From Pelotomaculum schinkii (GTDB taxonomy: Bacteria > Bacillota > Desulfotomaculia > Desulfotomaculales > Pelotomaculaceae), in contig NZ_QFGA01000001.1 of NCBI RefSeq assembly GCF_004369205.1, positions 558,001 through 622,000 of the forward strand: DNA of 64,000 nt, written 5' to 3'. This document shows, in pieces, positions 33,954-59,507 of this stretch (its first letter is position 1; each line of letters opens with the position of its first letter). Under the pieces are notes generated by a model, which was not told the origin of the DNA, did not search any database, and saw only the letters and a program-made list of their open reading frames with translations. Made by a program: the position numbers and the translations under genes.

Positions 33954-36900
33954 CTACTGCAACAAGGTCGGGTTAAAGTCAATGTTGTTGGTTAAGTTGT
34001 CCACAATGAATACTTTGACGATATCTCCGGCCGCTACATTGAAGCCGGCCTGGGCCATGTTAACAAAGTCAAAATCCGCTTTGGTAACGTTAAGGCTCAA
34101 CTGGAAGCCGTCGCGCAGATGGACGAATACCACAACTTCCTTCCCTTCATGCGCTGTGACCGGCGTGAGCTGAGCACCAAAATATTTCAGGCCGATGACG
34201 CCGGCTTTGACGGTCATGGTTTTGATCCCGCCTGTCTCTCCCACTTCATACACCGATACATCTTCCACAGGCGTCACCGTGTATTGGGGAGCTGAGTCAG
34301 CGGGAAGGTCTTCAAACTGGGCGGTAACAACAACGTCCGCAGCCGGCATCGCAAAGCTGTACACGCCCTCTGTGGCGGTAATTTCAATGTCGCCGCTGCC
34401 GCCGTTGTACTTGAGGCTGCCCGCCACCAGCCGCTTGCCGCTGTCCGGCGTCACGGTGACGGTGATCGTTGTGCCCTCGGTACCACTTGCCGGCTCTACC
34501 GTTACGGTGCCGCCGCTGATGCTGCCGTCCACCGCCACGGTGTAGGTCTCAGGAGCGGTTGTGCCCTGCCAGACCAGGATGGGATAGACGCTGCCTGCCT
34601 TGAAGTTTTCGCCCAAAGTCGAAGCCAGGGCCTTCAGTTCATCGGAGGTTTTGCTTACAGTGTTGTTGTTGTCTGTTGCATAACCGAGGCCTTTTGCAGC
34701 AGTGCTGTTGAGATAGTAGTTGTTGCTTACGTTGGTGTTGCCCGTGGCATAGCCGATCACGCCGGCGGTAAACGCGCCGGTATTGCTTACGGTGATGGCG
34801 CCGGCGTTATAGCAGTTTTGCACAGTGCAGGCAGCGTCATTGGTGTAACCGACCACGCCGCCGGTATGGGCAGTGTCGGATGTGCTTTCGCTGGTCACGC
34901 TGCCGGTGTTGTAGCAATTTGTCAACGTGTCGGACGCATCGCGCCGATAGCCGGCAACGCCGCCCACGTTCATCACGCCGCCTTTGACCGCGCCGGTATT
35001 ATAGCACTGATCTATCGTAGAACCGCCATAAGCATGACCCACGACGCCGCCGACACTATAGGAACTGGTTGAGGTGCTCGTCGCGGTGACAGCGCCTGTA
35101 TTGGCACACTTGCTGATTGTATCGGCGCCGTAAACAATACCCGCGATGCCGCCCACGTTATAGGTACCGGTGACATCACCGTTGTTGGTGCAGCCGGTTA
35201 TCAAGGTGGCGCCCCTGACGTAACCGGCGATGCCGCCAACGTTATTGGAAGTGCTGGTAATAGTCGCGTTGTTGACACAGTTTTCAATGGTAGCCGCGTC
35301 TTTGACATAACCAGCGATGCCCGCAGTATACGTACCGCCGGAGATGTTGCCCGCCACGGTCAGATTCTTCACCGTACCGTCCAGCACATAGCCAAACAGG
35401 CCGATATAGTTGGAGCCAGCTTTGTCAATTGTCAAAGTGATGGTCTTGCCGTCGCCATCGAAGGTACCGCCATAGTTCGTGGTACTGCTGATGCCTATGG
35501 GCGTCCAGGTCACCCCTGACAAGTCGATGTCGTTCATCAGCTTGCCGCTGACGGCATTGTTGAGGCCAGCGTTGACCTGATTGGCAAACCACAACATATG
35601 GTCAGCCGTGGAAAGTTCGTAGACATCGCCGTTCTTGCTGGGTGCGGCTGCGACTGTAATGGTGAAGTCGTAACTGTATGCCATTCCGCCGTAGGCGCCG
35701 CTGACAGTGATCGTGGTGTCTGTTGCTTCAAGCGCAGTTGTTTTGCTGATCGTGTAGTCTGTGATCTTTTCCCTGGTGCCATCGCTGTAATTGGCCCAAA
35801 TCACCAGACCCGCGGCGTCAAAGGTTTGTCCCGCAACATAGCTGAGCTTGGTGGGATCTGATTCTTTGCTGATGTCTGTTAAGGTAGAGGTGTCCGCTGT
35901 AAAGGCGCGCGGGATGGGATAACCGTTGTTGATATTATTGGTATCCGCCACCCAGGTCCTGCCGCCGGCGTTGAGCGCGGTCAGGAAGTCCGCTGTTTTC
36001 ATGGAGTCCGTTGTCGGCATCATGGTGATGGTGCTGCCGGTGGTGCTGCCATATACTGCCTGGTTGCTGGCGGAGGAACCGTCGAGCCAGTAGCAGTTGG
36101 TCCACACGGCGCCGCCGTTGTTGGTGCCCAGAGACTGCGCCTGGTTGGCCGAGCTGGCTCCCACATAGCCGACGTTATAGCTGTTGTAAACTTTCGCTTC
36201 GCAGCTGCCGGAGATGCCGCCGGCGTTCTTATAGGACGTGTAGATGGAACCCAGGTTGGCGCAGTTTTTAATGGTGAGGTTATTCCATCCGGCGCCGGCA
36301 ATGCCGCCGCATCCCTTGGAGTCGGTGTTGCTGACGGAGGCGTAGTTGATGCAGTTCTCGATCACTGAGCCATTGCTCTTGCCGTTTTTGCCGACGATGC
36401 CGCCTATGGAGCGATTGCCATAGATGTAGCCGGTGACGGCGACATTTTTGACGGAGGGACTTGCGTACCAGGCTCCCGGGTCGTTGTCATGGACGCCCAT
36501 GCGTCCGATCAGGCCGATGGACTGGCTGAAGCCATAGCCGAGAGAACCGCCGTGCCTGCTGCAGTAGATATTCTTTACCGTATGTCCCTGCCCGTCTAAG
36601 GTGCCGTTCCAGGAAGAGCCGATCAGGGTCGTGCCGTCCTGGTAAGTCATGCAATATTGTCCGCCAATAGGCATATAATTGGGGCCGCTCCAACTATCGC
36701 CGGACGCATTGTAGACACCGCCCATGTCAAGATCGGCTGTCAGGCAGACGGTTTTGCCGCCGAAGTCGTCGGAGCCATATATCCAGGTGTTAGCAGTCGC
36801 GTCTTTAACGGAGCCGCCGCCGACGTTACAGACAATATAACTTGGGTTGCCGATAACGGTGGCGCCGGTATTATAAGTACCGTTGACAATCGCCGCCAGG

Positions 36901-38270
36901 CCGGCCAGCTGCGCCGGGGTGTTGATATAAAACACGGTGTCGGTGGTGTTGTACCAGGAAACGTCCACCGAGCCATCCCAGACGTTTGTGGAGGCTCCGT
37001 TCATGGTCTGCGTAACAGAAGCGTCGCTGTAACCGGTGGCGCTTATCACGATGGCATAGTCTTTGGCAGTGGTGAACACGCTCTGATCGATTATGATGCT
37101 TCCGGCGTCAATCGTATATTTGCTGCTGTCCACAGCGTTGCCGTCCACGCTGACGCTGCTGATAGCCGCCCGCCAGGCCGCGTCATCGGTAAAGCTTAAG
37201 TTGACGTCATGTCCCACAGTGTTGTCCGTGCTGTCCGCCGTCAGAACCGGCGGGGTCAAAACACCCGGCGCTGCGTCCATGGTCTGGGTCACTGTGGCGT
37301 CGGCGTAACCGGTAGCTTTGACTACGACCGGGTAGTCCCCGGCGGCGGTAAAGACGCCGGCGTTGATGGTGATGGCTCCGGCCGTCACGCTGTATTGTCC
37401 GGCGATGGAGACGCCGGACACGGTGATATCAGTGATGGCGGCGCGCCAGGCGGTGTCATCGGTAAAGTTTAGGGTTGCCGGCTGGCCCAAGGCGGCAGCA
37501 TTGGCCGTCAAGGCCGGCGGCGAAGCCTGCTTTAGCATCACATCGATCTCGCACACCCACTTGGCAGCCTTCGGAGCGGTATACACACCGTTTGTATAGT
37601 CACTCTCCGTCTGGCCATTCAACAACCTGAACCTGGTCGCGCTGCTCATATTGTTGAAATTGGGCGGATCTTGAAAACGAGCCCAGTTGTCCTCGACCGC
37701 CAGCATCGGGTAGACCTGGACGGCGCCGTCCGTAGGACTGCCCCATGCTCCGGACTGGTCAGGTTTTTGGGTATCTGGATTCCAGCTCTTTACGATGTTT
37801 GGATAATAGTAGCGGGGCGTCCCAAACAGGTAATCCCTGGTCATGTTCGTATACCAGTTTGGTGCTGTGTCGGTGCAGTAAAAATATATTTTGTTGACAT
37901 TGCTCATGCCGGCGCCCGTGTTGACGCCTGCCGCCGCCAGAAGGTCGGAAATCAAGACGCCTTTCGCCGCGTCAATTACCGGAGCCGGCATGCTGTCGAT
38001 ATAAGAATAAGCCTGCTGCAAATTGGCCATGGCAGCCATCTCTTCGTAAGTAAAGGTTCTCACTGTGGTGTATGTGTTGGTTGGATTTGTTTCACTGGTA
38101 TAGCCGACTTTAATCGTAAGCGATGCCGCCGGTTCACTTTGGGTTGTGCTGTCAGCGCTGGCCGGACCCAGCTGGGCCAAACAGAGAAAACTTAACAGCA
38201 CGGCCAGCATAGCGAAACAGCCGACCAGCGCTTTATTTTTGGATTTAAACCAGAATCCCACTTGTTGCAT
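33954..38270 (-). CDS. Surface protein A: SUOX-like, HID, GLUG modules and NPTLLQ tail
   Basis: A 1438-residue exported protein. Order: signal peptide (KALVGCFAMLAVLLSFL); a sulfite-oxidase-like domain (about 50-250; FTYEEMAAM, GVLISDLLAAAGV, RYYYPNI, KWVCEIDVML); two Shr-like HID domains (about 253-430); GLUG-type repeats (about 440-800, GSVIENCINYASVSN); a Big_3 domain (about 800-880, DPTKLSYVAGQTFDAAGLVIWANY); more GLUG repeats (about 885-1225); an InlB-like repeat; and the shared C-terminal domain ending NPTLLQ. The ATG is five bases after GGAGGGG. No SLH, LPXTG or membrane anchor is present. The GLUG block 35985-37185 is almost copied in protein B. Confidence 0.88.
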   Translation of the reverse strand: MQQVGFWFKSKNKALVGCFAMLAVLLSFLCLAQLGPASADSTTQSEPAASLTIKVGYTSETNPTNTYTTVRTFTYEEMAAMANLQQAYSYIDSMPAPVIDAAKGVLISDLLAAAGVNTGAGMSNVNKIYFYCTDTAPNWYTNMTRDYLFGTPRYYYPNIVKSWNPDTQKPDQSGAWGSPTDGAVQVYPMLAVEDNWARFQDPPNFNNMSSATRFRLLNGQTESDYTNGVYTAPKAAKWVCEIDVMLKQASPPALTANAAALGQPATLNFTDDTAWRAAITDITVSGVSIAGQYSVTAGAITINAGVFTAAGDYPVVVKATGYADATVTQTMDAAPGVLTPPVLTADSTDNTVGHDVNLSFTDDAAWRAAISSVSVDGNAVDSSKYTIDAGSIIIDQSVFTTAKDYAIVISATGYSDASVTQTMNGASTNVWDGSVDVSWYNTTDTVFYINTPAQLAGLAAIVNGTYNTGATVIGNPSYIVCNVGGGSVKDATANTWIYGSDDFGGKTVCLTADLDMGGVYNASGDSWSGPNYMPIGGQYCMTYQDGTTLIGSSWNGTLDGQGHTVKNIYCSRHGGSLGYGFSQSIGLIGRMGVHDNDPGAWYASPSVKNVAVTGYIYGNRSIGGIVGKNGKSNGSVIENCINYASVSNTDSKGCGGIAGAGWNNLTIKNCANLGSIYTSYKNAGGISGSCEAKVYNSYNVGYVGASSANQAQSLGTNNGGAVWTNCYWLDGSSASNQAVYGSTTGSTITMMPTTDSMKTADFLTALNAGGRTWVADTNNINNGYPIPRAFTADTSTLTDISKESDPTKLSYVAGQTFDAAGLVIWANYSDGTREKITDYTISKTTALEATDTTITVSGAYGGMAYSYDFTITVAAAPSKNGDVYELSTADHMLWFANQVNAGLNNAVSGKLMNDIDLSGVTWTPIGISSTTNYGGTFDGDGKTITLTIDKAGSNYIGLFGYVLDGTVKNLTVAGNISGGTYTAGIAGYVKDAATIENCVNNATITSTSNNVGGIAGYVRGATLITGCTNNGDVTGTYNVGGIAGIVYGADTISKCANTGAVTATSTSTSSYSVGGVVGHAYGGSTIDQCYNTGAVKGGVMNVGGVAGYRRDASDTLTNCYNTGSVTSESTSDTAHTGGVVGYTNDAACTVQNCYNAGAITVSNTGAFTAGVIGYATGNTNVSNNYYLNSTAAKGLGYATDNNNTVSKTSDELKALASTLGENFKAGSVYPILVWQGTTAPETYTVAVDGSISGGTVTVEPASGTEGTTITVTVTPDSGKRLVAGSLKYNGGSGDIEITATEGVYSFAMPAADVVVTAQFEDLPADSAPQYTVTPVEDVSVYEVGETGGIKTMTVKAGVIGLKYFGAQLTPVTAHEGKEVVVFVHLRDGFQLSLNVTKADFDFVNMAQAGFNVAAGDIVKVFIVDNLTNNIDFNPTLLQ
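35985..37185. repeat. Long direct repeat inside proteins A and B, copy 1
   Basis: About 1.2 kb encoding GLUG repeats and a HID end is nearly identical to 42885-44110 in gene B, including silent positions over long runs. This points to recent duplication or gene conversion between the neighbouring genes. Confidence 0.8.
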
Positions 38271-38549
38271 TTCCACCCCTCCAAAAAGATTTTGACAACT
38301 TAAGTACTAACCTTCCTTTTCAGTAACTATTTATAATCACGGTTGCCACAATATACAGCAACACCACCTCCACCATAACTTTAGTTCTTAGAGACAATAT
38401 TTTGCATCTGTTAACCTAAACACGGTTACAATTTGATGGCCGTTAAACCATATCGGTATAAAAAGATGCTCTGGCAGCAACCGCTAAATCCCCCTCATAT
38501 GTTACAATTCCTCCTTCAACTTTATAGGGACTATTTAAATATACACTTA
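38271..38549. other. Upstream region of surface gene A
   Basis: AT-rich 5' region specific to gene A. It replaces the signal-peptide end of the repeated leader found before genes B and D. A good Shine-Dalgarno-like GAAGGAGG near 38505-38512 (minus) precedes only a four-codon frame. No clear promoter is seen. Confidence 0.35.
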
Positions 38550-38927: not shown

Positions 38928-41900
38928 CTACTGCAGCAAGGTCGGGTTATGGTCCACGTCGTTGGTTAAGTCGTCCACAATGAATACTTTTACCATATCC
39001 CCGGCCTCGACGTTAAAGCCGGATTGGGCTTCACCGACAAGGTCAAAATCCGCCTTGGTGACGTTGAGGCTTAACTGGACGCCGTCGCGCAGATGAGTAA
39101 AGGCCACGGCTTCCTCTCCCCCGTGCTCAATAACCGGTGTTATCAGCGTCCCGAAATATTTTAGGCCGGTGACGCCGGTTTTGACGGTCATGACGCTGAT
39201 CCCATCGTGTGTTGTTCCCACTTCATACACCGATACATCTTCCACAGGCGTTACCGTATATTTGGGAGCCTGAGAAATGTCCTCAAACTGGGCGGTGACG
39301 GCAACATTGGCCGCCGGCATTACGAAGCTGTACACGCCTCCGGTGGCGGTGATTTCAATGTCGGTAGTACCGTCGTTGAACTTGAGGCTCCCCGCCACCA
39401 GCCGCCTGCCTTCACCCGGCGTCACGGTCACGGTGATGGTTTCGCCTGCCGCCGCGACGGCCGGGTTCACTCCGACGGAACCGCCGCTGATGGCGCCGTC
39501 CACGGTTATGGTGTAGGTTTGGTCTCCCCCGGTCTGCCAGGTAAGGATAGGATAGACACTGCCCGGCTTGAAGCTTTCACCCAAAGCCGGAGCCAAAACC
39601 TGCAGCTCGGCAGAGGTCTTGCTGACGGCGTTGTCTGCCGCGTTACCAAGGCCTTTCGTGGCGGTGGTGTCGAGATAGTAGTTGTTGCTGATATTGGTGT
39701 TGCCCTTGGCATAGCCGATCACGCCGGCGGTATAGGCGCCGCTGTTGCTCACAGTGATCGTTCCGGCGTTATAGGTGTTTTGCACGGTGCAGGCAGCGTT
39801 GTTAGTGTAACCGACCACTCCGCCGGTACGGGCGCTGCCGGTGGCTTCACTGGTCACGCTGCCGGTGTTGTAGGAATTGGTCAATTTGGTGGCTGCGTTG
39901 TTCAGGTAGCCGGCCACGCCGCCCACGTTTATAACGCAGCCTCTGACTGCACCGCTGTTGTAGCACTGGTCGAGCATACTTGCTGCGTAAATATTACCTG
40001 CGACGCCGCCCACACTATAGGCTGACGCGGTAGAGGCACTCGTTGCGGTAATATTACCGGTGTTGGCGCAATTACTGATTGTCCCGCTGCTGTTATGATA
40101 ACCTACAATGCCACCCACATTATATTCACCGGTGACATTGCCATTGTTGGCGCAGCCGGTTATCGCAGTGGAACCGCTGGTATTGCCGGCAATGCCGCCA
40201 ACCCTATACGATATACCGGTGACTGTTGCGTTGTTGGCGCAGTTTTCAATGTTTGTGTCGACTGCAGAACCCGCGATGCCTCCCACATACGACTTCCCCG
40301 CAACACTGCCGGTCACGGTCAGATCCTTTATGTCAGCGCCCTTTACATAGCCGAACAGGCCGATATAATTGGAGCTCTCATTGGCAGCAGATAAAGTGAC
40401 GGTCTTGTTATTGCCGTCAAAGGTACCGCCGTAGGTTACCGAACTGCTTATACCAATAGGCGCCCAGGCGATTTGGGACAGGTCAATGTCGTTTAAGAGT
40501 CTGCCTTTAATGTTATTGCTATCAGGGCTGACGTTGACCTGGTTGGCAAACCAGAGCATTTCTCCAGCGGTGGTAAGTTGATAGACATTATTGTTGTCCA
40601 TAGTGGGAGCCGCGGCTAAAACCGTGACAGGCTGTGCAACCGTCTTGGTCACACCGGCTTCGGTATAGCTGATGGTAATCGCGGTATCCCCCGTGGACAG
40701 TACGCTGGGACTGTAGGTATACGCGTCGGACGTCAGCGCGGCAGTTGTACCGTTGGTATAATTGGCGGTTATGACCATGCCGGTGGGATCGAAAGTCTCG
40801 CCCGCGATATAAACGAGATCATTGGGCGGGGAGGTGACGGCAATGCTCGCCAGGGCATTGGCTGCGACCGTAATCGGGAAATCATAGCTGAAGCCGACTC
40901 CGTTATGGGTGCCGCTGACCGTGATCGTAGTACCACTATCGGTCATTTCCAGCGGCGTTGTTTTGCTGATCGTGCAGTCTGTAATCTTTTCCCGCGTACC
41001 GTCGCTGTAATTGGCCCAGATGGTCAGACCGGTTGGATCAAAGGTCTCTCCCTCCACATAGCTGAGCTTGGTGGGATCGGATTCTTTGCTGATATCGGTT
41101 AAGGTTGAGGTATCCCCCGTCATGACACGCAGGATGGGATAGCCGTTGTTGGTATTGCCGGTGTCCGCTACCCAGACCCGTTCGTCGCCATTGAGCGCCG
41201 CGAGGAATTCAACGGATTTCAGCTCGTCGCTTGTTTTGCCGACAGTATTGTCGGTGGCATTTCCAAGTCCTTTGGCAGTGGTAGTGCTGAGATAGTAGTT
41301 ATCTTTGATATTGGTGCCGGCTGCGGCATAACCGATCACGCCGGCGGTAAATCCGCCGCTGTTGCTCACGGTGATCGTCCCGGCGTTATAGGTGTTTTGC
41401 ACGGCGCCGGCAGTGATATTCGTGCGGCCGGCCACGCCCCCGGTATTGGCGGAAGCGGATGTGCTGGTGCTGGTCACGCTGCCGGTGTTGTAGGAGTTGG
41501 TAAGCATGGTGGAGGCATTGTTCAAATAACCGGCCACACCGCCCACATTCATCACGCCGCCGCTGACCGCACCGCTGTTGGCGCACTGGTCAATCGTGGT
41601 GGCATATTTTGCATACCCCACAATACCGCCCACACTATAGGCTGCGGTGATGTCCGTGCTGGTGGCAGTGACGGCGCCGGTATTGAGGCAATTATTGACA
41701 GTACTGCTGCCGTTATCGTTGCCTACGATGCCGCCTACATGATAGCTGCCGCTGACCGCTCCGGTATTCGTGCAGCCCGTCACCGTGACAGCGCCGCTAA
41801 TGTAGCCGACAATGCCGCCCCCGCAGGATGCGTTGCTGATATTGCCGTTATTGACACAGCTGCTTATAGTAACGGTATCGGTGGCGCCGGCAACTATGCC

Positions 41901-44900
41901 GCCAACCAGCTCGCCGGCGCCGGTGCTGGTGACAGTGGCGTTGTTGACGCAGTTCTGGATCTGCGACGAACCCATAGCATTAACGACAATGCCCGCCGTG
42001 GTACCGCTGCCGGAGACGCTGCCTGCCACGGTCAGGTCTTTGATCGCGGCATCCTGGATATAGCCGAACAGACCGGCACAAGCTGTAGAGCCCTCCATGG
42101 CTAAAGTAACAGTCTTGCCGTTGCCGTCAAAGGCGCCGGAATAGAATGCAGTGGCGCTGCTGCCGATCGGCGTCCAGGTTACTGCGGACAGGTCGATGTT
42201 TTCTGTCAGTTTGCCTTTTGTGCTGGCCCTGCGGCCAACATTGACCCGGTTGGCAAACCACAGCATATGGTCGGCCGAGGAAAGCTCGTAAAAACCATCG
42301 ACCAGCGCCGGAGCGCCCGTGGCCAGAACCGTGACCGGCTGGTCCGCCGTCACGGTTACACCGGAGGAGGTGTAGCTGATGGTGACCTTGTCGTCGCCCG
42401 GCGCGAACACACTGGGAGTAACGGTATACTGGCCGGCCGCCAGGTCTGCGGTTTTGCCGTCGGCGTAGGTTACGCTTACAGCCATGCCAGCGGGATCAAA
42501 GCTCTCACCCGCGGCATACAAAAGGTTCGTGGGCGGAGTGGTAATGGTGATGCTTTGCAAAGAATTGGAAGTGACCGTAATCGGAAATTCGTAGCTGTAG
42601 TCCATACCGCTATAAGTGCCGCCGACAGTGATGCTTGTATCCGTGCTTGCCAGCGGGGCGGTTTTGCTGATGGTATAGTCGGTAATTTTTTCGCGGGTGT
42701 CATCGCTGTAATTAGCCCAGATAACCAGGCCGACCGGATCAAAGGTTTCTCCCTCCACATAGCTGAGCTTGGTGGGATCGGATTCTTTGGTGATACTTGT
42801 TAGTGTGGCGGTATCCGCCCAGGCCCGCGGGACAGGATAGCCGCTGTTGATATTTTGGGTATCCGCTACCCAGGCCCGGCTGTCGCCGTTCAGGGCGGCC
42901 AGGAATTCAGCTGTTTTCATGGAGTCTGTTGTCGGCATTTGGGTGATGGTGCTGCCGGTGGTACTGCCATATACCGCCTGGTTGCTGGCGGACGATCCGT
43001 CCAGCCAGTAGCAGTTGGTCCACACCGCGCCGCCGTTGTTGGTGCCCAGAGACTGGGCCTGGTTGGCCGAGCTGGCGCCTACATAGCCGACGTTATAGCT
43101 GTTGTAAACTTTCGCTTCGCAGCTGCCGGAGATGCCGCCGGCGTTCTTATAGGACGTGTAGATGGAACCCAGGTTGGCGCAATTTTTAATGGTCAGGTTA
43201 TTCCATCCGGCGCCGGCAATGCCGCCGCATCCCTTGGAGTCGGTGTTGCTGACGGAGGCGTAGTTGATGCAGTTCTCGATGACGGAGCCGTTGCTCCGGC
43301 CGTTTTTGCCGACGATGCCGCCTACGGAGCGGTTGGCGTAGATGTAACCGGTGACGGCGACATTTTTAACGGAAGGAGTGGCGTACCAGGCTACCGGATC
43401 GTTGTCATGGACGCCCATGCGCCCGATGAGGCCGACGGACTGGCTGAATTCATAGCCGAGAGAACCGGCGTGCCTGCTGCAGTAGATATTCCTGACAATA
43501 TGCCCCTGCCCGTCGAAGGTGCCGTTCCAGGAGGAGCCGATAAGCGTCGTGCCGTCCTGAGCAGTCATGCAGTATTGGCCGCCGATGGGCATATAGATGG
43601 GACCGCTCCAGGCGCCGGTCGAGCTGTCGTAGACGCCGCCCATATCCAGATCGGCTGTCAGGTATACTGTCTTGCCGTCAAAATCGTCGCCGCCGTAGAT
43701 CCAGGTAGCGGTAGTCGCGTCTTTAACGGCGCCGCCGCCGACGTTGTAGACGATATAATCCGGATTGCCGTTAACGGTGGCACCTTCATTGTAAATACCG
43801 TTGACGATGGCCGCCAAACCGGCCAGCTGCGCCGGGGTGTCGATATAAAATACGGTATCGGTGGTGTTGTACCAGGTGACATCCACCGAGCCGTCCCAGA
43901 CGGTTGTGGATGCTGCGTTTATGGTCTGAATAACAGAAGCGTCGCTATAACCGGTGGCGCTTACCACGATGGTATAGTCTTTGGCAGTGGTGAACACGCT
44001 CTGATCAATGGCGATGCTTCCGGCCTCAATCGTATATTTGCTGCTATCCACAGCGCTGCTGTCCACGCTGACGCTGCTGACGGCGTTTCTCCAGACTTCA
44101 TCGTCGGTGAAGGTGAGATACACCGCCTGGCCCACGGTGTTGTCCGTGGTATCGGCGGTCAAAGCCGGCGCAGGCAGTATTGAGGGGCCGCCTGTCCACC
44201 CGGCATATAGCGTCACGTCGCCGGTCACCGTCTCGCTGCCGAAGTCAAAAGCGTTGGTGCAGGCCGCTTCTTTGTACCAGCCGCCGAAGGTGTAATTGTC
44301 GCGGCTGGGATCGACCGGAGCCGCGATGTGCTTGTTTCCGTCAACCGCCACGGGGCCGGTCGCCGGAGCGCCGCCGCTGTAATTGGGGTCAAGGGTCAGC
44401 AGGCAATAGGCGGATTTCGTGTATGTGGTGAAATTCGACCAGCTGGCAGCTTGGCCGATATGGTAATAAAGAACGAAATTAGAAGCTGCACCGGAAAACG
44501 GGGTCGTTCCGAATGTCGGCATGCTACCTTGGAAATAAGACGCCTCAATTTTGCTGCAGTCTTGGAAGGCGGAAGATCCGATGCTCGTCACGCTGCTCGG
44601 AATCGTTACCGAGGTAAGTCCCGTGCAGCCGTAGAAGGCACTATTCCCAATGCTCGTCACACTGTCCGGAATCGTTACCGCGGTAAGTCCCGTGCAGTTA
44701 TAGAAGGCGCCATTTCCGATGCCCGTTACACCGGTCGAAATCGTTACTGCGGTAAGTCCCGTACAACCACGGAAGGCAGAAGCACCGATGCTTGTCACGC
44801 TGTTCGGGATCGTTACCGCGGTAAGTCCCGTGCAGTCACGGAAGGCAGAAGAACCGATGCTGGCCAGGCCATCCGGCAGGGTTACCGTGGTAATAGTGCT

Positions 44901-46121: not shown

Positions 46122-49100
46122 CTACTGCAGCAAGGTCGGGTTATGGTCCACGTCGTTGGTTAAGTCGTCCACAATGAATACTTTTACCATATCTCCGGCC
46201 TCGACGTTAAAGCCGGATTGGGCTTCACCGACAAGGTCAAAATCCGCCCTGGTGACGTTGAGGCTTAACTGGACGCCGTCGCGCAGATGAGTAAAGGCCA
46301 CGGCTTCCTCTTCCCCATGCTCAATAACCGGTGTTATCAGCGTCCCGAAATATTTCAGGCCGCTGACGCCTGCTTTGACGGTCATGGTTTTGATCCCGTC
46401 TGTCTCTCCCACTTCGTAAACCGACTCGTCTTCAACGGGGGTCACCATGTATTTGGGGCTGTCGGTCGCCTCGTTTATCGTTTGGGTTACCGTGGCGGCG
46501 GCGTAGCCGCTGGCGGTGACTGTGACGGTGTAGTCGCCGGCCGAGGCAAACACAGCGGCGTCAATACTGATGGCGCCCGCGTTTACCGTGTACTGCCCGC
46601 CGGTCAGCGCGCTTCCGTTGACCGTGATCCCGCTGATGGCGCTGCGCCAGGCCTGATCATCGGTGAAGGTGATCTCCACCGCACGGCCCACGCTGTTGTC
46701 CGTGGTATCGGCGTTCAATACCGGAGGCGTTTGCTCCTCCGGCGGGTTGCTGAACTGGAGGGACAACTCGAATTGCCCGTCAGCGCCGGTATCGTACTGG
46801 TCCAGGTAAGGCGAGTAGGTAACAGCCTGGATTTTATTCTGAACCGGATAGAACTGATAGAGCCTCAGCCAGCCGTTGCCGCCGTTGGGCAGATCGGTGT
46901 AATCAGTTAATAGATTATAGACGGTGTTGCCGCTCTCGCCGGTGTCCGTGCCGTGGTACTGGCCGCCAACATGGCCGCATAACACGGCGACGACGTTGCT
47001 GTGCTTCTTGACTATATTTTCGTGGATGGCCGGACCGGAGACATCATCGCCGCCGGCGTACTCTCCGTTGGGTTTAATGTAGCCGTGGGTCACCACGATC
47101 GCTTTGCGGTCGCTGTATTGGGTCAGGACCCCGTTGGCCCAGTCGGTGGCCTCCGCCAGCAATGCGGGCGCACAGACCAGGTTCAGCACGATGAAGTCCT
47201 GTCCCAGGGCGGAGAAAAGCTGGTAGCTGCTGGCGTTGCTGCTCTCCGGATAATGCCCGCCGTACCAGCTGCAGCCGGTAAAGTCGGTGTAGGGGAAAAA
47301 GGTGTCGAACATTGTGGTGTCGCCGGTCTCAAAATTCAGGTCGTGGTTGCCGGGGACTACCGAATAAGGAATCCCCGCGGTCCGGATGATGGCCATGGCG
47401 TCTTTGGCATTCTGCCACTGGGCGGGGTTGTCGTAATCATCCTGGATGTCCCCCAGATGGGCCACGAAGACGATGTTTTGCGACTGGGCCTGATCGGCTA
47501 TCCATTGGGTTTGCCGGGCAAAGATCTCCGGATAGCTTTCGGAGTAGAATTGCGTATCCGGCAGCACGGCGAGGGTGAAGTGGTCGGTACCGGCCGCTTG
47601 GACGGTGACGGCGCAGGCGGCGGTAAAGCCTCCGTCTACCGTGGTGACTGTAATGTTGGCTGTTCCGGTACCCATTGCCCTAACCAGACCGTTGCTGTCG
47701 ACTGTGGCTGCGGCCGCATTGTCCGAGGTCCAGGTCACCTCTTGATTGGCCGCGTCGGATGGGGTGATGGTGGCCGTGAGCTGCACGAAATTGCCGACGG
47801 TGAGGACGAGTTCGCTTTTATCCAGGTTTACGCCACTGACCGCGACACCCGGATCCATGAACCGGGCGGTGACAATGGTGTCGGCCGCCGGCAGGATGAA
47901 GCTATACACGCCGTCGGTAGCGGTGATTTCCGTATAGGTGCTGCCGCTATCCGCCGTGTATTTAAGACTGCCCGCCACCAGCTCTTTGCCGGCATCGGGA
48001 TTGACGGTAACGGTGATGGTGTCGCCTGCGCTGCCGCTCGTCGGGCTCAGCGCCAGGCTGCCGCCGGTGATGGCGCTGTCCGCTGTGACACTGTAGGTCC
48101 CCGGGTCGTTCTCGGGAACCACGAAGACGACCTTATTGACTAACTTTGAGGTGTTCATGGCCGTACACCGGGCATCCCGCTCGTCCATGGTCGGCAGAAC
48201 TCCGTTCCCGTATTCCGCCTCCGTCTGGCCGTAGAAGAAACGGTAGGTGTTCAGGGTGTCGTAGGGCTGGTTATCGACCTGGGTCCGCCGGCCCGCCCAG
48301 CCGGTGATGGCCAGTACGGCCGGGACCTCCCGGTCCTCGCCGGTCCGGTTTTCCGGCGCCAGGTACTGGTCGCCGATTCCGGCATAGTATTTGCGGGTCT
48401 GTCCCATTAAATATTCCCAGCTGAGCCCGTTTACGCCCATGGTCCAGCCGTCCAGGCTCGCTCCTCTTAAGCTGCAGTCCGGTCCGTCAAAGCGCACGTC
48501 GCTGTTGTAGGCGGCGGCGCTCTCTGTCAGTTGCTCAATGGTGACGTAGCGGACGGCTTTACCCATGAAGACAGCAGGCAGCCGGTCATACATGGCGTAA
48601 TGGATGGGCGTGGTGTTCTCTGCCGCCAGGGCTTCCATTTCCGCCCTGGTGTAAGAGTGCACCGGGATCTCCTCGCCGGCCGCGCCATACTGAATATAGA
48701 CGTCCAGCGGGGTGTAGTCCGCGGTGAAGCCCACGGTGACGGGCTCATCCGGCATGACGAAGCTGTAGACGCCGGGCCCGTTGACGTTGTTGGCGTTGCC
48801 GGTTGCCGCGGTGATAGTGGTAAAGTCATAGGTTGTACCGGAGTCACCGGTGACGATGAGGCCGATTGCCCAGGAAGTAAAAGCAGTATCGGATACCGTA
48901 ACGATCACGGTTTCGCCCACTGTCGCTGAAGTCTTGTCGGGCGTTACTGTCCAGATGGCGTCGGGAACCGCCGCCACAGCGATATTATAGGTCGCAGCGG
49001 AGATGTCCTCAAACTGAGCGTTTACAACGACATCCGCCGCCGGAAGCACAAAGCTGTACACGCCGTCCGTGGCGGTAATTTCCGTATAGGTTGCGCCGCT

Positions 49101-49391
49101 GTCGGCGGTGTATTGCAGGCTGTTCGCCACCAATTGCTTGCCGCTGTCCGGTGTCACAGACACGGTGATGGTATCACCCGCGCTACCGCTGGCCGGATTC
49201 ACCGCAATGCTCCCGCCGGTTATGGCGATGTCCACGGTCACGCTGTAGGTCGCGTCCGAAACCGAAACCTCCGCACCCGCGGCACCGCCCGATGGACCTT
49301 CCGCCGCCAAAGCGGCGGTGGGAAGCATGGTGCAAAGCATGGCTAAAATCATCAGGCAGGCCAGCAGACGGCTGCGTCTTTTTCTGATCAT
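46122..49391 (-). CDS. Surface protein C: SUOX-like domain, metallophosphatase, HID, NPTLLQ tail
   Basis: A 1089-residue exported protein. Order: signal peptide identical to B and D; InlB-like repeats (about 37-230); sulfite-oxidase-like domain (about 234-420; YTRAEMEALAAE, MGKAVRYVTIEQL, YRFFYGQTEAEYGNG); InlB-like repeat (about 427-513); Big_2 (about 517-597); calcineurin-like phosphoesterase (about 600-880) with VLPDTQF, HLGDIQDDYD, VPGNHDLNF, VTHGYI and LCGHVGGQYH as metal ligands; HID (about 884-970); C-terminal domain. The metal-site residues look complete, so it is probably an active extracellular phosphatase or nuclease. Substrate unknown. Confidence 0.88.
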   Translation of the reverse strand: MIRKRRSRLLACLMILAMLCTMLPTAALAAEGPSGGAAGAEVSVSDATYSVTVDIAITGGSIAVNPASGSAGDTITVSVTPDSGKQLVANSLQYTADSGATYTEITATDGVYSFVLPAADVVVNAQFEDISAATYNIAVAAVPDAIWTVTPDKTSATVGETVIVTVSDTAFTSWAIGLIVTGDSGTTYDFTTITAATGNANNVNGPGVYSFVMPDEPVTVGFTADYTPLDVYIQYGAAGEEIPVHSYTRAEMEALAAENTTPIHYAMYDRLPAVFMGKAVRYVTIEQLTESAAAYNSDVRFDGPDCSLRGASLDGWTMGVNGLSWEYLMGQTRKYYAGIGDQYLAPENRTGEDREVPAVLAITGWAGRRTQVDNQPYDTLNTYRFFYGQTEAEYGNGVLPTMDERDARCTAMNTSKLVNKVVFVVPENDPGTYSVTADSAITGGSLALSPTSGSAGDTITVTVNPDAGKELVAGSLKYTADSGSTYTEITATDGVYSFILPAADTIVTARFMDPGVAVSGVNLDKSELVLTVGNFVQLTATITPSDAANQEVTWTSDNAAAATVDSNGLVRAMGTGTANITVTTVDGGFTAACAVTVQAAGTDHFTLAVLPDTQFYSESYPEIFARQTQWIADQAQSQNIVFVAHLGDIQDDYDNPAQWQNAKDAMAIIRTAGIPYSVVPGNHDLNFETGDTTMFDTFFPYTDFTGCSWYGGHYPESSNASSYQLFSALGQDFIVLNLVCAPALLAEATDWANGVLTQYSDRKAIVVTHGYIKPNGEYAGGDDVSGPAIHENIVKKHSNVVAVLCGHVGGQYHGTDTGESGNTVYNLLTDYTDLPNGGNGWLRLYQFYPVQNKIQAVTYSPYLDQYDTGADGQFELSLQFSNPPEEQTPPVLNADTTDNSVGRAVEITFTDDQAWRSAISGITVNGSALTGGQYTVNAGAISIDAAVFASAGDYTVTVTASGYAAATVTQTINEATDSPKYMVTPVEDESVYEVGETDGIKTMTVKAGVSGLKYFGTLITPVIEHGEEEAVAFTHLRDGVQLSLNVTRADFDLVGEAQSGFNVEAGDMVKVFIVDDLTNDVDHNPTLLQ

Positions 49392-49589
49392 ATCCTTGCT
49401 CCTTTCCTTTCGTTTTCCTGTTTTTACTTCATTTTGGGGCCATCCACGGCCATGGTGCTGCTCCCGCCACCCGGCATACAGCGAGAATTTATTCCTTTTT
49501 ATTGTGCTACCATCAACGATGCCCCTGAGATGGACAACATTACACCTGACAGAACCTGACAGAAGGGGAAAGACCGCGATATGAAGCCT
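49392..49589. other. Short spacer between genes C and D, leader truncated
   Basis: Only the first 50 bases (through TTCATTTTGGGGCCAT) match the repeated leader; the hairpins are absent and unrelated DNA follows up to the stop of gene D. So gene C lacks the folded leader that precedes B and D. Confidence 0.6.
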
Positions 49590-52500
49590 CTACTGCAACA
49601 AGGTCGGGTTATGGTCCACATCGTTGGTTAAGTCGTCCACTATGAATACCTTAACCATATCACCGGCCTGGACGTTGAAGCCGGACTGGGCTTCGGCAAC
49701 CAGGTCGAAATCCGCTTTGGTAATGTTGAGGCTTAACTGGACACCGTCGCGCAGATGGGTGAAGACCACGGCCTCCTGCCCTGCATGCTTGATAACCGGC
49801 GCTATCTGCGTCCCGAAATATTTCAGGCCGCTGACGCCGGTTTTGACAGTCATGGTTTTGATCCCGCCTGTCTCGCCCACTTCGTAAACCGACCCGTCCG
49901 CCACGGGGTCAACCGTGTATTTGGGGTTACCCGCCTCAGGCGTAATGATGGTGATGGCACAGGTGTACTTCAGGAAGTCGCCGACGGTCGCATTTTCAAT
50001 CAGGGGCGTCCCTCCGTTGAACTGCGCCTCGGTCTGACCGTACACAAAGCGGTAAGCATTCAGGGTATCGCACGCCATATCATCGATATCCTGACCCTGC
50101 TCAAACTCGATAAACCGCTTCTGATATCCCTTGATCACGAGCATGGCGTCGATCGGCGTCTTGCCCGCTTCCTTGTTTCCCGCCGCGGCGATGTTAGGAT
50201 AGTAGCAGCGGTTCTCCTCGTAAAGATCCTCGTAAGCGTAAGTGCGGGAGGACTCATCCAGCGCGTTCAGCTTAAGGGTATTGCCCTCTCCAAAGCTCAC
50301 ACCGGCATTATCCAGCAGGTCTGTCAGCCTGACGGCCTGTACCGCCTTGCCGATTACTGCGGTGGGATACCTGTCATAACCGGTGTAATAAATGGGTTCG
50401 GTACCGGCAAGGGCAATCATTTCTTCCCGGGTGTAAGTTTTGACCAGAGCGGGGGTCCCATCCTCACCGGTCTTGGTATAAATGGAAAGCGGCATGTAAG
50501 AAACATCAAGACCGATGGTCACGGCGCTCTCCGGCATAATAAAGGTGTAAACGCCGCCGCTAATCGTATTGTATCCGCCCGAGGTGGTGGAAAAGGTTGA
50601 TGAGGGAACCGTCCCGTTTCCGGCATCCCTGACGGTGATGCCTTCAAGGCTGGCCGTTATGGCGTCTGCCATGCGGGTTACCGTCACGGTCACGGTCGAA
50701 CCGGCGATAATCTCATTCTCGTTCAAGCCGGAGGAGGCCACATCGACGGTCCAGATGGGATCGATACCGGGAGCGACGGTGAAAACATAGGGATCGCCGC
50801 CTGCAACGACGTTTTCAAAGAGCACCGTGACGCTGACCGCGCTGGAGCCCATGGTGAAGGTGTAGGACGCGTTTTCTGTTACCGTGGTCACGGGATAAAC
50901 GATGCTGTTGGCGTCAATGGCGGTAACGCTCTGCACCCGCTTGCCGGTTTCTAGATCTGAGATGGTGATGGTTACAGTCTCGCCCGGCTCCGCTTCGGCT
51001 GCAGATGCGGATACGGTTGCCGCCGCGCTGTCGAAGTTGAGCGTAATGGCGTGAGCGGCCGGCCCGGGGCTCGACCCGTTCTGCCAGGCCAGCACCGGAT
51101 ATCCGCCGTTGCAGCCGTTGCTGTCATAGGCGAAGGCAGCGCCCAGAGCGGCGGGCATGGCCGGCGCTTTCAGTTCCTCTTCGGTCTTGACCGTCGTGGT
51201 GCCGCTGTCTCCCGCTCCGGAAAGCGCGGTGGCGTTGAGGTAATAGCAGTTGACAGGGCTGACCGACTGGCTGCCGACAATATTGCCGCTGGTGCCGATG
51301 GTAGACGCGCCGGACACCCGCCCGATACTGTAGCAGTTTGTGATTGTGGCGGTGCTGTTCTGTGTTTCGCCTGCAATGCCGGCAAAACGGGTGGGTACGT
51401 TGCCGGAAGTCGCCGTGGAGACAATGTTGCCCGTGTTGTAGCAATCCACAACGGGGCCGCAGCTCTTGCCCGCGATGCCGCCCGCATAGGTCTTGCCGGA
51501 AGAAGTGCCGGTGACGGTTCCGGTGTTGCAGCAGGCGCTGATGGTAACATAAGAGGCGAACTGGCCGCCCACGATGCCGCCGGCATACTGATACGCCTTG
51601 ATTTCAGCGGCGTTGAAGCAATTGGAAATGGTCGCGTAGTCTCCCGTTAGATCAAAGATGCCCACGATGCCGCCGACCCGGCCACCCTGATTGCAATTGG
51701 GCGCCGTGACCGTGCCGTAGTTGGCGCAGCCTGCAATGGTTACGGGAGCGCTCGCCGTGCCGGTTCCCATGCCGACTACACCGCCCGCATGGCCAATCCT
51801 GTTGGTTCCGCTGCCGCCCGGGCTGGCGCCGCCGGAGGCGTAAATGACCGCGCGGTTCACAGCGTTTTCAATGGTGCCGCCGTTTACAAAGCCCGCGATG
51901 CCGCCCACATACTGCACGCCGGCGACTACGCCGGAAACCGTGATGTTTTTGACGTCGCCGCCCTGCCCAACGTATCCGAAGAGTCCCTGATAGGAAGCGG
52001 TCATATCGGTATAAAGGCCGCTGACGGTATGGCCCTTGCCGTCAAAGGCGCCCCTGAACTGGTTTGTGCTGGTGCCGATGGGCGTCCAGATCTCGGCCTC
52101 CGCAGAAACGGTAGGCACGGTGAAAGTGCCGGAATAATCCGGGAGGCCGTCCTGGAAATACTCATCCGCCGTGGTATAGAGGCCGTCACCGTCCAGCGCG
52201 ATGTCGCCGCCGAGAATGACGGTCCTGCCTTCAAAGGTATCGCCTCCGTTCACAGCCGCCGCAAAGGCGAGAAGTTCTTCCCTGGTGTTGATGGTAAGAG
52301 ACGACGGAAGAGCCTCGAAAGTAGCGGTTACGGTTACATCAGCCGCCGGGAGAACGAAGCTGTACACGCCGTCTGTGGCGGTTATTTCGGTGTGGGTCTC
52401 GCCGCCGTCCGCCGTGTATTTGAGGCTGCCCGCCACCAGCTGCTTGCCGCTGTCCGGTGTCACAAACACGGTGATGGTATCACCCGCGCTACCGCTGGCC

Positions 52501-52697
52501 GGATTCACCGCAATGCTCCCGCCGGTTATGGCGCTGTCCACGGTCACGCTGTAGGTCGCGTCCGTGACCGAAACCTCTGCACCCGCGGCGCCGCCCGATG
52601 GACCTTCCGCCGCCAAAGCGGCGGTGGGAAGCATGGTGCAAAGCATGGCTAAAATCATCAGGCAGGCCAGCAAACGGCTGCGTCTTTTTCTGATCAT
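49590..52697 (-). CDS. Surface protein D: GLUG, SUOX-like domain, NPTLLQ tail
   Basis: A 1035-residue exported protein. Order: signal peptide as in B and C; InlB-like repeat (about 32-122); GLUG region (about 129-545; GGIAGFVNGGTIENAVNRA, GGIVGIFD); two InlB/Ig-like repeats (about 549-732); sulfite-oxidase-like domain (about 735-923; YTREEMIALAG, GKAVQAVRLTDLLDNAGV, RCYYPNIA, YRFVYGQTEAQFNGG); C-terminal domain ending NPTLLQ. Here the SUOX-like domain is directly before the tail rather than at the N-terminus, showing free shuffling of modules. Confidence 0.88.
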   Translation of the reverse strand: MIRKRRSRLLACLMILAMLCTMLPTAALAAEGPSGGAAGAEVSVTDATYSVTVDSAITGGSIAVNPASGSAGDTITVFVTPDSGKQLVAGSLKYTADGGETHTEITATDGVYSFVLPAADVTVTATFEALPSSLTINTREELLAFAAAVNGGDTFEGRTVILGGDIALDGDGLYTTADEYFQDGLPDYSGTFTVPTVSAEAEIWTPIGTSTNQFRGAFDGKGHTVSGLYTDMTASYQGLFGYVGQGGDVKNITVSGVVAGVQYVGGIAGFVNGGTIENAVNRAVIYASGGASPGGSGTNRIGHAGGVVGMGTGTASAPVTIAGCANYGTVTAPNCNQGGRVGGIVGIFDLTGDYATISNCFNAAEIKAYQYAGGIVGGQFASYVTISACCNTGTVTGTSSGKTYAGGIAGKSCGPVVDCYNTGNIVSTATSGNVPTRFAGIAGETQNSTATITNCYSIGRVSGASTIGTSGNIVGSQSVSPVNCYYLNATALSGAGDSGTTTVKTEEELKAPAMPAALGAAFAYDSNGCNGGYPVLAWQNGSSPGPAAHAITLNFDSAAATVSASAAEAEPGETVTITISDLETGKRVQSVTAIDANSIVYPVTTVTENASYTFTMGSSAVSVTVLFENVVAGGDPYVFTVAPGIDPIWTVDVASSGLNENEIIAGSTVTVTVTRMADAITASLEGITVRDAGNGTVPSSTFSTTSGGYNTISGGVYTFIMPESAVTIGLDVSYMPLSIYTKTGEDGTPALVKTYTREEMIALAGTEPIYYTGYDRYPTAVIGKAVQAVRLTDLLDNAGVSFGEGNTLKLNALDESSRTYAYEDLYEENRCYYPNIAAAGNKEAGKTPIDAMLVIKGYQKRFIEFEQGQDIDDMACDTLNAYRFVYGQTEAQFNGGTPLIENATVGDFLKYTCAITIITPEAGNPKYTVDPVADGSVYEVGETGGIKTMTVKTGVSGLKYFGTQIAPVIKHAGQEAVVFTHLRDGVQLSLNITKADFDLVAEAQSGFNVQAGDMVKVFIVDDLTNDVDHNPTLLQ

Positions 52698-53097: not shown

Positions 53098-56000
53098 CTA
53101 CTGCAGCAAGGTCGGGTTATGGTCCACGTCGTTGGTTAAGTCGTCCACAATGAATACTTTTACCATATCCCCGGCCTGTACGTTGAAGCCGGATTGGGCC
53201 TGTCCGACAAGGTCAAAATCCGCCCTGGTGACGTTAAGGCTAAGCTGGACGCCGTTGCGCAGATGGGTAAAGACCACGGCTTCCTTCCCTGCGTGGGCTA
53301 TGACCGGAGTGAGCTGGGCGCCGAAATATTTCAGGCCGCTGACGCCGGTCTTGACGGTCATGGTACTGATCCCGCCTGTCTCGCCCGCTTCGTAAACCGA
53401 CTCGTCCACCACGGGGTCAACCGTGTACTTGGGGTTGTCTCCGGGGGTGGTCGCCTCATTATTTATCGTCTGGGTTACCGTGGCGTCGGCGTAGCCGCCG
53501 GCGGTGACTGTGACGGTGTAGTCGCCGGCCGAGGCAAACACAGCGGCGTCAATACTGATGGCGCCCGCGTTTACCGTGTACTGCCCGCCGGTCAGCGCGC
53601 TTCCGTTGACCGTGATCCCGCTGACGGCGCTACGCCAGGCCGCGTCGTCGGTGAAAGTGATCTCCACCGCCCGGCCCACGCTGTTGTCCGTGGTATCGGC
53701 GCTCAACACCGGAGGCGTTTGCTCCTCCGGCGGGTTGCTAAACTGGAGGGGCAGCTCGAATTGCCCGTCAGCGCCGGTATCGTACTGGTTCAGGTAAGGC
53801 GAGTAGGTCACAGCCTGGATTTTATTCTGAAGCGGATAGAACTGATAGAGCCTCAGCCAGCCGTTGCCGCCGTTGGGTTGATCCTGGTAATCCGATAGGA
53901 GATTATAGACTGTATTGCCATTTAATCCGGTTGCGGTGTTGTTATATTGGCCGGAATAATGACCGCATAACACTGCTATTACATTACTGTGGAGTTTAAC
54001 GACATTGTTCCAGACATCAAGACCGGCTACGCTTTGGGTATTTTGATAATTTCCGCTGGTATCGATGTATCCATGAGTGACGACAACGGCTTTACGATTG
54101 CTATATTGGGTCAGGACCGAATTGGCCCAGTCTGTTGCATCGGCTAGCAGCGAAGGCGCGCAAACCAGGTTTAAAACTATAAAGTCCTGTCCCATGGCGG
54201 AGAAAAGCTCATAATTGCTGGAATTGCTGGTGGAAGGATAATTTCCGCCGTACCAGGAATATTCGTTAAAGTCGGTGTAGGGGAAATAGGTATTATAATT
54301 AGTTAGGTCACTGGTCGCAAAAAACATATCATGGTTACCGGGGACTACCGAATAAGGAATACCTGCGGCCCGGATGATTGCCATTGAATCCCGGGCATTT
54401 TGCCATTGCGTGCTGTTGTTATAATCATTAACCATGTCCCCCAGGTGAGCCACAAAAACGATATTTTCGGACTGGGCGTTATCGGCTATCCATTGAGTTT
54501 GCTGATCAAATATTTCCGGATAACTTTCCGCATAAAATTGCGTATCCGGCAGCACGGCGATAGTGAAGTGATCCCAGGTCTGAGAACCGCCGTTATCCTT
54601 GATGAAAATGGCCTTGACCGAAATATTGGCAGTCACGTTAATGTCGGTTCTGGGATTATCAGCCGAGCCATCACTCCAATTTGCGAAGTGAAAACCGCTG
54701 TCCGGCACGGCAGTTACCTCTGATCCGCTGGCGCCGGAAGCTACTGTTTGCGATGAATTACCGCTGATGGAACCATGGGCGCCGGCAGTGTAGGTCAGGA
54801 TGTAAGTATCATTGGAAAAGCTCACTACTACCGTATGATTGGCATTTATATTATTGATCGTATAAGTATTGTTGCTGACTGAGCTTAACACATCAATACC
54901 ATTATCCGTAATGGAGGCCAGGTGATAACCGCCGGCCGGGCTGATGGTAATGGTGGAGGACCCATTATTACTAACTGTCGCCGGGTCTGCGGTCACAGTC
55001 CCGTTGCCGCCGCTCACCGAGGCTGAGACAGTGTAATATGCTACCGGCGACGGCAGGTTGTTCAAGTCGACAATGAAATTCGGGATTTGCTGCCACCCAA
55101 GAATGGGATAGCTGTCCGGCAATGCGTAGCCGAAGCCGTATGATCCGTTGGGATTATCCAAATCCGCACTGCCAAGGTAATTTGGGACGATATAGCCGCT
55201 AAAGGTACCTGATCTGTTGCTCCCCGTCATTTCCGTCTTTCCCTGCAGCTCCGGTATGGTGATCGAAGAAACATTGGTTTGGGTACCCCAGGTATCGTCT
55301 AGATTGGGCTGGGTCATGTCACTGTTGGTCTCAACATAAAAGCAATTCGTGATATGCACCGCCTGGTTGTAATCAGCAGAAGCCCACAGCCACCGGTCGT
55401 AGCCGACGGCATAGCCGGTAAAGCAAGCGGTGCTGTAGCAGTTGGACATGGAGGCGACGGGATAGATAGGGGGCGTACCGGTGAGAATGCCGGTGATGCC
55501 GGCCAGGTAGTGCCCGTTGTTGGTTTCCAGGTTACCCTGGTTATAGCAGTTGGTGATGTAGCCTGCGCAATAGCCCACGATGCCTCCAGTAAAAATCTTT
55601 TTCGTGCTATACACGGATTTGATGCAGCCTGTATTGAAGCACTGGTCAACGACCACACCGCCGTCACTCAAGCAGTACACAGCGCCTGCAATGCCGCCTA
55701 TTCTGCCCCGGGCGGTGACGTCTCCGGTGTTGGAGCAGTACCGGACATACAAAGCAGGGCTGCTGTTGGTATTCGCCACTACACCCGCGATGCCGCCGGC
55801 CTGGGAAGCGGTGCAGGCGGTGGGGTCAGCGACAGACACGGTCATGGAGCTGTGCAGGTTGTAGAGACTGCCGGTCGTGTAGCCGACCACAGATCCAATC
55901 GCACTGGTGTAGTTGTCGCCCATGTCCAGCGACCCGGCTACGTTCAGGTTGGCAATGGTTCCGCCGTTGACATAGCCGAATAAGCCGTAAGCGCCGGTTC

Positions 56001-56433
56001 CGGCGGCAGGATTGGAAATGTTGATGCCGCTGATGGTGTGGTTGCAGCCGTCAAAAACACCGCCAAAGTAGAGGCCGGTAGGAACGCCCCCCTCGCTGGC
56101 AGTGAGGGGGCAGTGGCCGCCAATCGGGGTCCAGGCATAGCCGGCAAGGTTGATGTCGTCACCCAATTTAAAGAAGGACCCGCCATATGATGTTCCGCTG
56201 TTGACGTTGTCAGCCAATCCTTTTAACTGGGCGGCGGTGCTGATGACATAAGGGTCGCCCGATGTGCCGCCGCCGGTCCAGTCGGCGCTGGAACTGGCGC
56301 CGTTCCAGGCGCTTACCGCAAACGCGGGGCTTGGATTGAAAGCAGCCAATACGCTTACCAACATGGCCACCAACACTATGCCGCTGAAAATATGTCTGGC
56401 TGCGGTATTAAAACCACATTTCAGGCAAAACAC
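53098..56433 (-). CDS. Surface protein E: GLUG, metallophosphatase, HID, NPTLLQ tail
   Basis: A 1111-residue exported protein, first gene of the five. Order: signal peptide of its own type (HIFSGIVLVAMLVSVLAAF, cleavage after AFA near 39); GLUG region (about 44-454; YVISTAAQLKGLADNVNSG); two InlB-like repeats (about 464-611); calcineurin-like phosphoesterase (about 614-897) with VLPDTQF, HLGDMVNDYN, VPGNHDMFF, VTHGYI and LCGHYSGQYN; HID (about 899-990); C-terminal domain. Its phosphoesterase, HID and tail are nearly the same as in C, while the N-terminal half differs. GTG start with AAGGAG eight bases upstream. Confidence 0.88.
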   Translation of the reverse strand: MFCLKCGFNTAARHIFSGIVLVAMLVSVLAAFNPSPAFAVSAWNGASSSADWTGGGTSGDPYVISTAAQLKGLADNVNSGTSYGGSFFKLGDDINLAGYAWTPIGGHCPLTASEGGVPTGLYFGGVFDGCNHTISGINISNPAAGTGAYGLFGYVNGGTIANLNVAGSLDMGDNYTSAIGSVVGYTTGSLYNLHSSMTVSVADPTACTASQAGGIAGVVANTNSSPALYVRYCSNTGDVTARGRIGGIAGAVYCLSDGGVVVDQCFNTGCIKSVYSTKKIFTGGIVGYCAGYITNCYNQGNLETNNGHYLAGITGILTGTPPIYPVASMSNCYSTACFTGYAVGYDRWLWASADYNQAVHITNCFYVETNSDMTQPNLDDTWGTQTNVSSITIPELQGKTEMTGSNRSGTFSGYIVPNYLGSADLDNPNGSYGFGYALPDSYPILGWQQIPNFIVDLNNLPSPVAYYTVSASVSGGNGTVTADPATVSNNGSSTITISPAGGYHLASITDNGIDVLSSVSNNTYTINNINANHTVVVSFSNDTYILTYTAGAHGSISGNSSQTVASGASGSEVTAVPDSGFHFANWSDGSADNPRTDINVTANISVKAIFIKDNGGSQTWDHFTIAVLPDTQFYAESYPEIFDQQTQWIADNAQSENIVFVAHLGDMVNDYNNSTQWQNARDSMAIIRAAGIPYSVVPGNHDMFFATSDLTNYNTYFPYTDFNEYSWYGGNYPSTSNSSNYELFSAMGQDFIVLNLVCAPSLLADATDWANSVLTQYSNRKAVVVTHGYIDTSGNYQNTQSVAGLDVWNNVVKLHSNVIAVLCGHYSGQYNNTATGLNGNTVYNLLSDYQDQPNGGNGWLRLYQFYPLQNKIQAVTYSPYLNQYDTGADGQFELPLQFSNPPEEQTPPVLSADTTDNSVGRAVEITFTDDAAWRSAVSGITVNGSALTGGQYTVNAGAISIDAAVFASAGDYTVTVTAGGYADATVTQTINNEATTPGDNPKYTVDPVVDESVYEAGETGGISTMTVKTGVSGLKYFGAQLTPVIAHAGKEAVVFTHLRNGVQLSLNVTRADFDLVGQAQSGFNVQAGDMVKVFIVDDLTNDVDHNPTLLQ

Positions 56434-59488: not shown

Positions 59489-59507
59489 TTACAATTCTCC
59501 CTATCGC

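Follow-up and report, generated by a model that had tools for sequence, protein, structure and literature searches.

The known anchors do not explain how large exported proteins that lack an anchor are kept at the cell surface in syntrophic and acetogenic clostridia, and the locus analyzed here raises this question for five genes in a row. In the window, i.e., the whole stretch of 64,000 nucleotides of Pelotomaculum schinkii DNA that was analyzed, five minus-strand ORFs between positions 33954 and 56433 encode exported proteins of 1035–2298 amino acids with differing bodies (proteins A–E, Table 1). The initial annotation had claimed that all five share one cysteine-free C-terminal domain ending in NPTLLQ, that none of them has SLH, LPXTG or a membrane anchor, and that no named family was known for the domain, all of which was borne out. 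The ORFs are in place, the C-terminal domain (CTD) spans 111–113 residues and closes with NPTLLQ and the stop codon in each protein, and the copies of proteins B–E are 73–76% identical to that of protein A and closer to one another. No cysteines were present in the five copies, and none of the three anchor types was found on the proteins. The domain is covered by no Pfam or NCBIfam model at E 0.01, a search in which Por_Secre_tail (the C-terminal domain of type IX secretion) also had no match to the five proteins; its profile had no match among the PDB sequences even at E 10, and no paper on the CTD or on the pair described below was found among the open-licence papers searched. For protein B, the ATG at 45719 is a likelier start than the TTG of the ORF, and its signal peptide, MIRKRRSRLL, is then the same as in the next two genes. 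The five genes adjoin a region (56838–64000) with SUOX-like (Oxidored_molyb) proteins at 58370–59488 and 59508–60041, a phosphodiesterase-like protein, an SLH + Big_2 protein and an ExbB-like + DUF2149 pair; similar gene sets recur near the CTD loci of other genomes, together with FMN-binding, NapH-like ferredoxin and ECF transporter genes.

The CTD is predicted to fold into a compact beta-sandwich (pLDDT 93), after which no hydrophobic stretch or basic tail was found. Searches with this model returned beta-sandwich domains of GH2 enzymes as the closest structures in VIA-align (Z 7.6, 89 residues, 3.4 Å), a value that common arrangements reach, and weak, mixed beta-sandwich matches in Foldseek (best E 0.026); as these matches are weak and mixed, no fold family is claimed.

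A profile built from the five window CTDs matched 18 of 100 relatives, and a wider profile matched 25 of the 113 genomes surveyed in the class and 17 of the 398 in the phylum. At the fetched loci, the longest ORFs were taken by a simple rule and signal peptides were judged by hydrophobicity; this gave 98 CTD ORFs from 44 genomes, all of Clostridia-type bacteria, among them Pelotomaculum, Desulfosporosinus, Dethiobacter, Syntrophomonas, Clostridium ragsdalei, and Anaerovorax. The window's clade has the form NPTLLQ, while NPxxLQ is the commonest ending overall and NPxxL is found in some lineages; one or two cysteines occur in 18 of the 98 CTDs. Main and diverged forms of the CTD share the residues G49, E51, F55, D72, A81, F83, N84, K92, and D97. 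The terminal position of the domain is fixed: at most three residues follow it in 92 of the 98 ORFs, five in one, and seven or eight in three diverged ones, the remaining two being interrupted copies beside assembly gaps, so that all CTDs whose end is intact are C-terminal. It is single-copy in each protein. A signal-like hydrophobic N-terminus was recognized in 73 of the 85 CTD ORFs that have their own start; several of the exceptions are ORFs broken by frame breaks or gaps, and some have a signal peptide upstream in another frame. None of the 98 proteins contains SLH, an LPxT[GA] motif within the last 60 residues, or a C-terminal membrane-like span. As for remnants, L048:692-1258 is an interrupted copy at an assembly gap, and L066:9558-9986 is a 142-aa ORF with a second CTD-like tail upstream.

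The bodies to which the CTD is attached are mutually unrelated (purple-acid phosphatase, RCC1, C39-like, GLUG, LRR_5, PKD, beta-helix, SUOX-like), with 5'-nucleotidase and GH53 galactanase among the diverged CTD proteins. The window's genome (4.4 Mb) has eight copies; of the three outside the window, one is on a purple-acid-phosphatase-like protein, another on an RCC1 protein, and the third on a protein that matches C39 peptidase marginally (E 2e-4, just under the curated cut-off). This last protein (L038:6840-8570) has no recognizable signal peptide, and no gene for the partner described below lies nearby. A purple-acid-phosphatase-like protein of ~520–555 aa with the CTD at its end was seen, by length and sampled sequences, in roughly twenty genomes (e.g., L037:8975-10537, L045:16162-17742, L046:5344-6915, L048:6666-8231); often found beside a giant CTD protein, it may be the core client.

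A second conserved domain of ~92 residues, hereafter the partner domain, lies on surface proteins encoded beside CTD genes. It emerged when the neighbor domains were separated by HMMs, the initial clustering having lumped SLH and SUOX-like proteins. In 48 of 58 cases the partner domain starts no later than residue 75, and in none of the 98 CTD ORFs do the two domains share a protein. Two such proteins are encoded in the window downstream of the five genes (Table 1), the gene of the first 508 bases downstream of protein A. The anchors of the partner proteins vary while the partner domain stays constant: most carry SLH, and dockerin I (PF00404), Cu_amine_oxidN1 (PF07833) or CFI-box-CTERM (NF041770) is found elsewhere. 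Type I dockerin was identified with Pfam on the Dethiobacter partners, and dockerin-like C-termini were recognized by eye in several others; Cu_amine_oxidN1 repeats (a stalk) constitute the anchor region of some partner proteins, and CFI-box-CTERM accompanies a membrane span on a Clostridium ragsdalei partner and was found by motif in genome G155. In Dethiobacter (L081:2657-5181, L089:5753-6322), where the type I dockerin stands at the partner's end, cohesin-like ORFs, recognized by eye, then follow.

Table 1. Coordinates, in the window, of the five CTD proteins and of the two proposed receptor proteins with their domains
Feature	Position	Strand	Length and content
Proposed anchored receptor protein 2	25981-27672	-	563 aa; signal peptide, partner domain, fn3, three SLH motifs
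Partner domain of receptor protein 2	27289-27567	-	Sequence used for fold prediction
Proposed anchored receptor protein 1	27921-33446	-	1841 aa; three partner domains, fn3 repeats, three C-terminal SLH motifs
SLH region (cell-wall anchor) of receptor protein 1	27933-28433	-	
Partner domain 3 of receptor protein 1	30705-30980	-	
Partner domain 2 of receptor protein 1	32187-32462	-	
Partner domain 1 of receptor protein 1	33051-33326	-	
Protein A (ORF)	33954-38276	-	1440 aa; body: Shr-like HID, GLUG, Flg_new_2
CTD of protein A	33957-34289	-	
Protein B (ORF)	38928-45824	-	2298 aa from TTG; body: LRR_5, GLUG, Big_3, Shr-like HID
CTD of protein B	38931-39266	-	
Protein C (ORF)	46122-49391	-	1089 aa; body: Big_2, metallophosphoesterase, Shr-like HID
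CTD of protein C	46125-46457	-	
Protein D (ORF)	49590-52697	-	1035 aa
CTD of protein D	49593-49925	-	
Protein E (ORF)	53098-56433	-	1111 aa; body: metallophosphoesterase, Shr-like HID
CTD of protein E	53101-53433	-	

The predicted model of the partner domain (pLDDT 95) has an MG2-like fold, with MG domains taking most of the top ranks in VIA-align (Z up to 12.3, 92 residues, 2.4 Å) and a best Foldseek value of 2.6e-4. At the sequence level, PF01835 (MG2) matched diverged partners with E 4e-6, its best score (27.5 bits in L164_7) being under the cut-off of 32.8, and the partner profile had chance-level matches only among PDB sequences, mostly ribosomal eS25. K35 and several glycines are kept in the main and diverged forms. 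More distant relatives of the partner domain occur in tandem on SLH proteins in L177:4236-10351 (the window's genome, contig 1 near 1.66 Mb) and L176; these adjoin SUOX-like proteins without a CTD gene and could perhaps be sockets for another tag.

The two domains co-occur strictly. Considering as strong the matches with E < 1e-25 for the CTD and E < 1e-18 for the partner domain, the 14 genomes with a strong CTD among the 398 phylum-wide genomes are the same 14 that have a strong partner domain (hypergeometric P = 4e-26, computed as if the genomes were independent of one another, which does not hold, and taking no account of phylogeny or joint transfer). They span ten families (survey labels), and other members of several of these families are without both domains. 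At E ≤ 1e-3, all 17 CTD genomes of this survey are among the 26 partner genomes, while SLH, taken as a control, is present in 335 of the 398. In the class survey the partner domain was found in 23 of the 25 CTD genomes; of the two exceptions, G065 has its CTD gene ending ~200 bases from a contig edge, while G006 is not so explained. One genome (G032) has a strong partner domain only.

The genes are also adjacent: a partner gene lies immediately downstream on the same strand of 44 CTD genes in 38 genomes (median gap 93 nt), and 51 CTD genes in 40 genomes adjoin one when either neighbor is counted. One partner locus adjoins several CTD clients, and some CTD genes, e.g., L038_7, which is without a recognizable signal peptide, lie far from all partner genes. 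The pairing extends to diverged forms, as weak CTD matches in the genera g180, g21, and g54 adjoin weak partner matches. Profiles built from diverged pairs only and run against 234 genomes recovered one new diverged pair, in the genus g77 (G325), outside the genera used for profile building; in this adjacent pair the CTD lies close to the end of an exported protein of 816 aa, and the partner domain close to the N-terminus of an SLH protein of 640 aa. In addition, for the 26 pairs with an SLH partner, the correlation of CTD distances is r = 0.77 with those of the partner domain and r = 0.52 with those of SLH in the same partners (partial correlations 0.67 and 0.12, respectively). The bootstrap interval of the difference between the two coefficients (−0.07 to 0.58) reaches just below zero and the SLH distances may be partly saturated, so that the co-variation of CTD and partner is suggestive only.

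Since the CTD stands almost always beside a surface-anchored partner, it probably fastens varied exported enzymes and adhesins to the cell. More specifically, we propose, with a probability of roughly two in three, that the CTD is a docking module that binds the MG2-like domain of the neighboring surface-anchored protein. A constant tag on unanchored clients, a constant module on neighbors that swap anchors, the mutual exclusion of the two, and their near-perfect co-occurrence are what a docking pair predicts. According to the proposed mechanism, exported proteins that differ widely in their bodies and are themselves unanchored would carry the 111-residue beta-sandwich at their C-terminus, and after secretion this domain would bind non-covalently to an MG2-like Ig-fold domain placed near the N-terminus, away from the anchor, of the neighboring protein. 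The latter would be fixed to the surface through SLH in some species and through dockerin, Cu-amine-oxidase-N (stalk) repeats or a CFI-box membrane anchor in others. The two SLH proteins encoded downstream in the window would offer four receptor domains to five tagged proteins. Direct binding of CTD and partner, its affinity, its non-covalent nature and the surfaces at which the two would meet are what we infer from these patterns, the conserved NPxxLQ tail being a candidate contact surface. It also seems probable that the two domains represent an unnamed and widespread docking pair of Gram-positive anaerobes, a C-terminal plug and an MG2-like socket that evolved apart from dockerin and cohesin; this pair would, again probably, serve phosphatases, nucleotidases, a galactanase, and giant adhesins, with the anchor of the socket exchanged several times.

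A shared role in which the two never touch would account for co-occurrence and adjacency as well. In one such reading, the CTD would be a ligand-binding or adhesive beta-sandwich (recognizing, e.g., a wall polysaccharide or S-layer glycan) and its MG2-like neighbors, which would not bind it, would merely travel in the same horizontally moved surface locus. The GH2 beta-sandwich domains found as nearest folds, within the range of common arrangements, agree with this, and joint transfer would yield the adjacency; we nevertheless consider it unlikely, as it leaves unexplained the strictly terminal, single-copy occurrence of the CTD, its absence from self-anchored proteins, and the persistence of the partner domain through changes of anchor. 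A partner that acts before display, as a secretion chaperone or S-layer lattice assembly factor, with the CTD as a lattice subunit contact, would account for partners being usually encoded directly beside their clients, as chaperones often are, and for SLH on many of them. However, the partners are themselves stably anchored, in some species by dockerin or membrane anchors, and one partner locus adjoins several clients, which makes such a role very improbable.

The initial annotation had mainly read the constant end as a sorting or anchoring signal, and had asked whether it is always C-terminal, on signal-peptide proteins, and accompanied by one particular transpeptidase or secretion gene. Every intact CTD among the 98 ORFs of the 44 genomes is indeed terminal, and most of the proteins have a signal-like N-terminus; the anchoring part of the reading is favored by this terminal position and by the anchored partner, while cleaved sorting by transpeptidation fits neither the folded domain nor the gene content. 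The window's genome lacks sortase (PF04203), as do six of eight further CTD genomes tested, and no transpeptidase was recognized among the recurrent neighbor clusters of CTD genes; the gene that does co-occur encodes an anchored MG2-like surface protein, so that sorting fits less well than docking to such a partner. Sortase dependence of the CTD proteins was rejected, considering the absence of sortase in seven of nine genomes and the lack of a processing motif and of a membrane tail. A sorting signal that a dedicated secretion or transpeptidation machine reads, and whose end is cleaved or modified, would suit the terminal position and the conserved NPxxLQ ending, but is the least probable reading for a folded domain of 111 residues that has no membrane segment or basic tail, that is followed by 1–8 further residues in some copies, and whose genomes are without sortase in seven of the nine cases tested, the window's own included.

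What is new here is the partner domain and its pairing with the CTD. If the docking proposal is true, a folded C-terminal tag with a defined partner would provide a rule for annotating many 'hypothetical' surface proteins, the tag would predict which enzymes sit on the cell, and a second docking pair would be added to the cohesin–dockerin toolbox for enzyme display.

With regard to known systems, the predicted fold of the partner domain resembles MG2 (PF01835) of alpha-2-macroglobulin and complement C3/C5 (Z ~11–12, rmsd 2.1–2.4, ~92 residues), while its sequence identity to them is ~12–16% and it lies outside thioester proteins, single or repeated, in SLH, dockerin or stalk proteins, where it mostly adjoins the signal peptide. 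SLH proteins share the same surface setting, most partners being SLH proteins themselves, whereas CTD proteins never have SLH, which is present in 335 of 398 genomes vs. 14 (strong) or 17 for the CTD. LPXTG/sortase and other C-terminal sorting tags likewise place a constant C-terminal region on variable exported proteins; the CTD differs in having no motif, membrane span or basic tail, and sortase is missing in most of the CTD genomes tested. A parallel in organization is cohesin–dockerin, where a small module, one tag per protein, is found on many secreted enzymes with exchangeable bodies, and its partner module on anchored scaffold proteins, often with SLH. The CTD, however, is a 111-aa beta-sandwich, while dockerin is a calcium-binding duplicated helix pair, and the Pfam scans detected neither dockerin (PF00404) in the CTD of the CTD proteins nor cohesin (PF00963) in the partner proteins; judged by these defining modules, the pair is not cohesin–dockerin. 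Some partners bear a real dockerin beside the partner domain, so that the two systems appear stacked, and the dockerin-bearing partners of Dethiobacter, together with the cohesin-like ORFs, possibly represent two docking systems placed one on top of the other. By analogy, the CTD and its partner likely work as cohesin and dockerin do.
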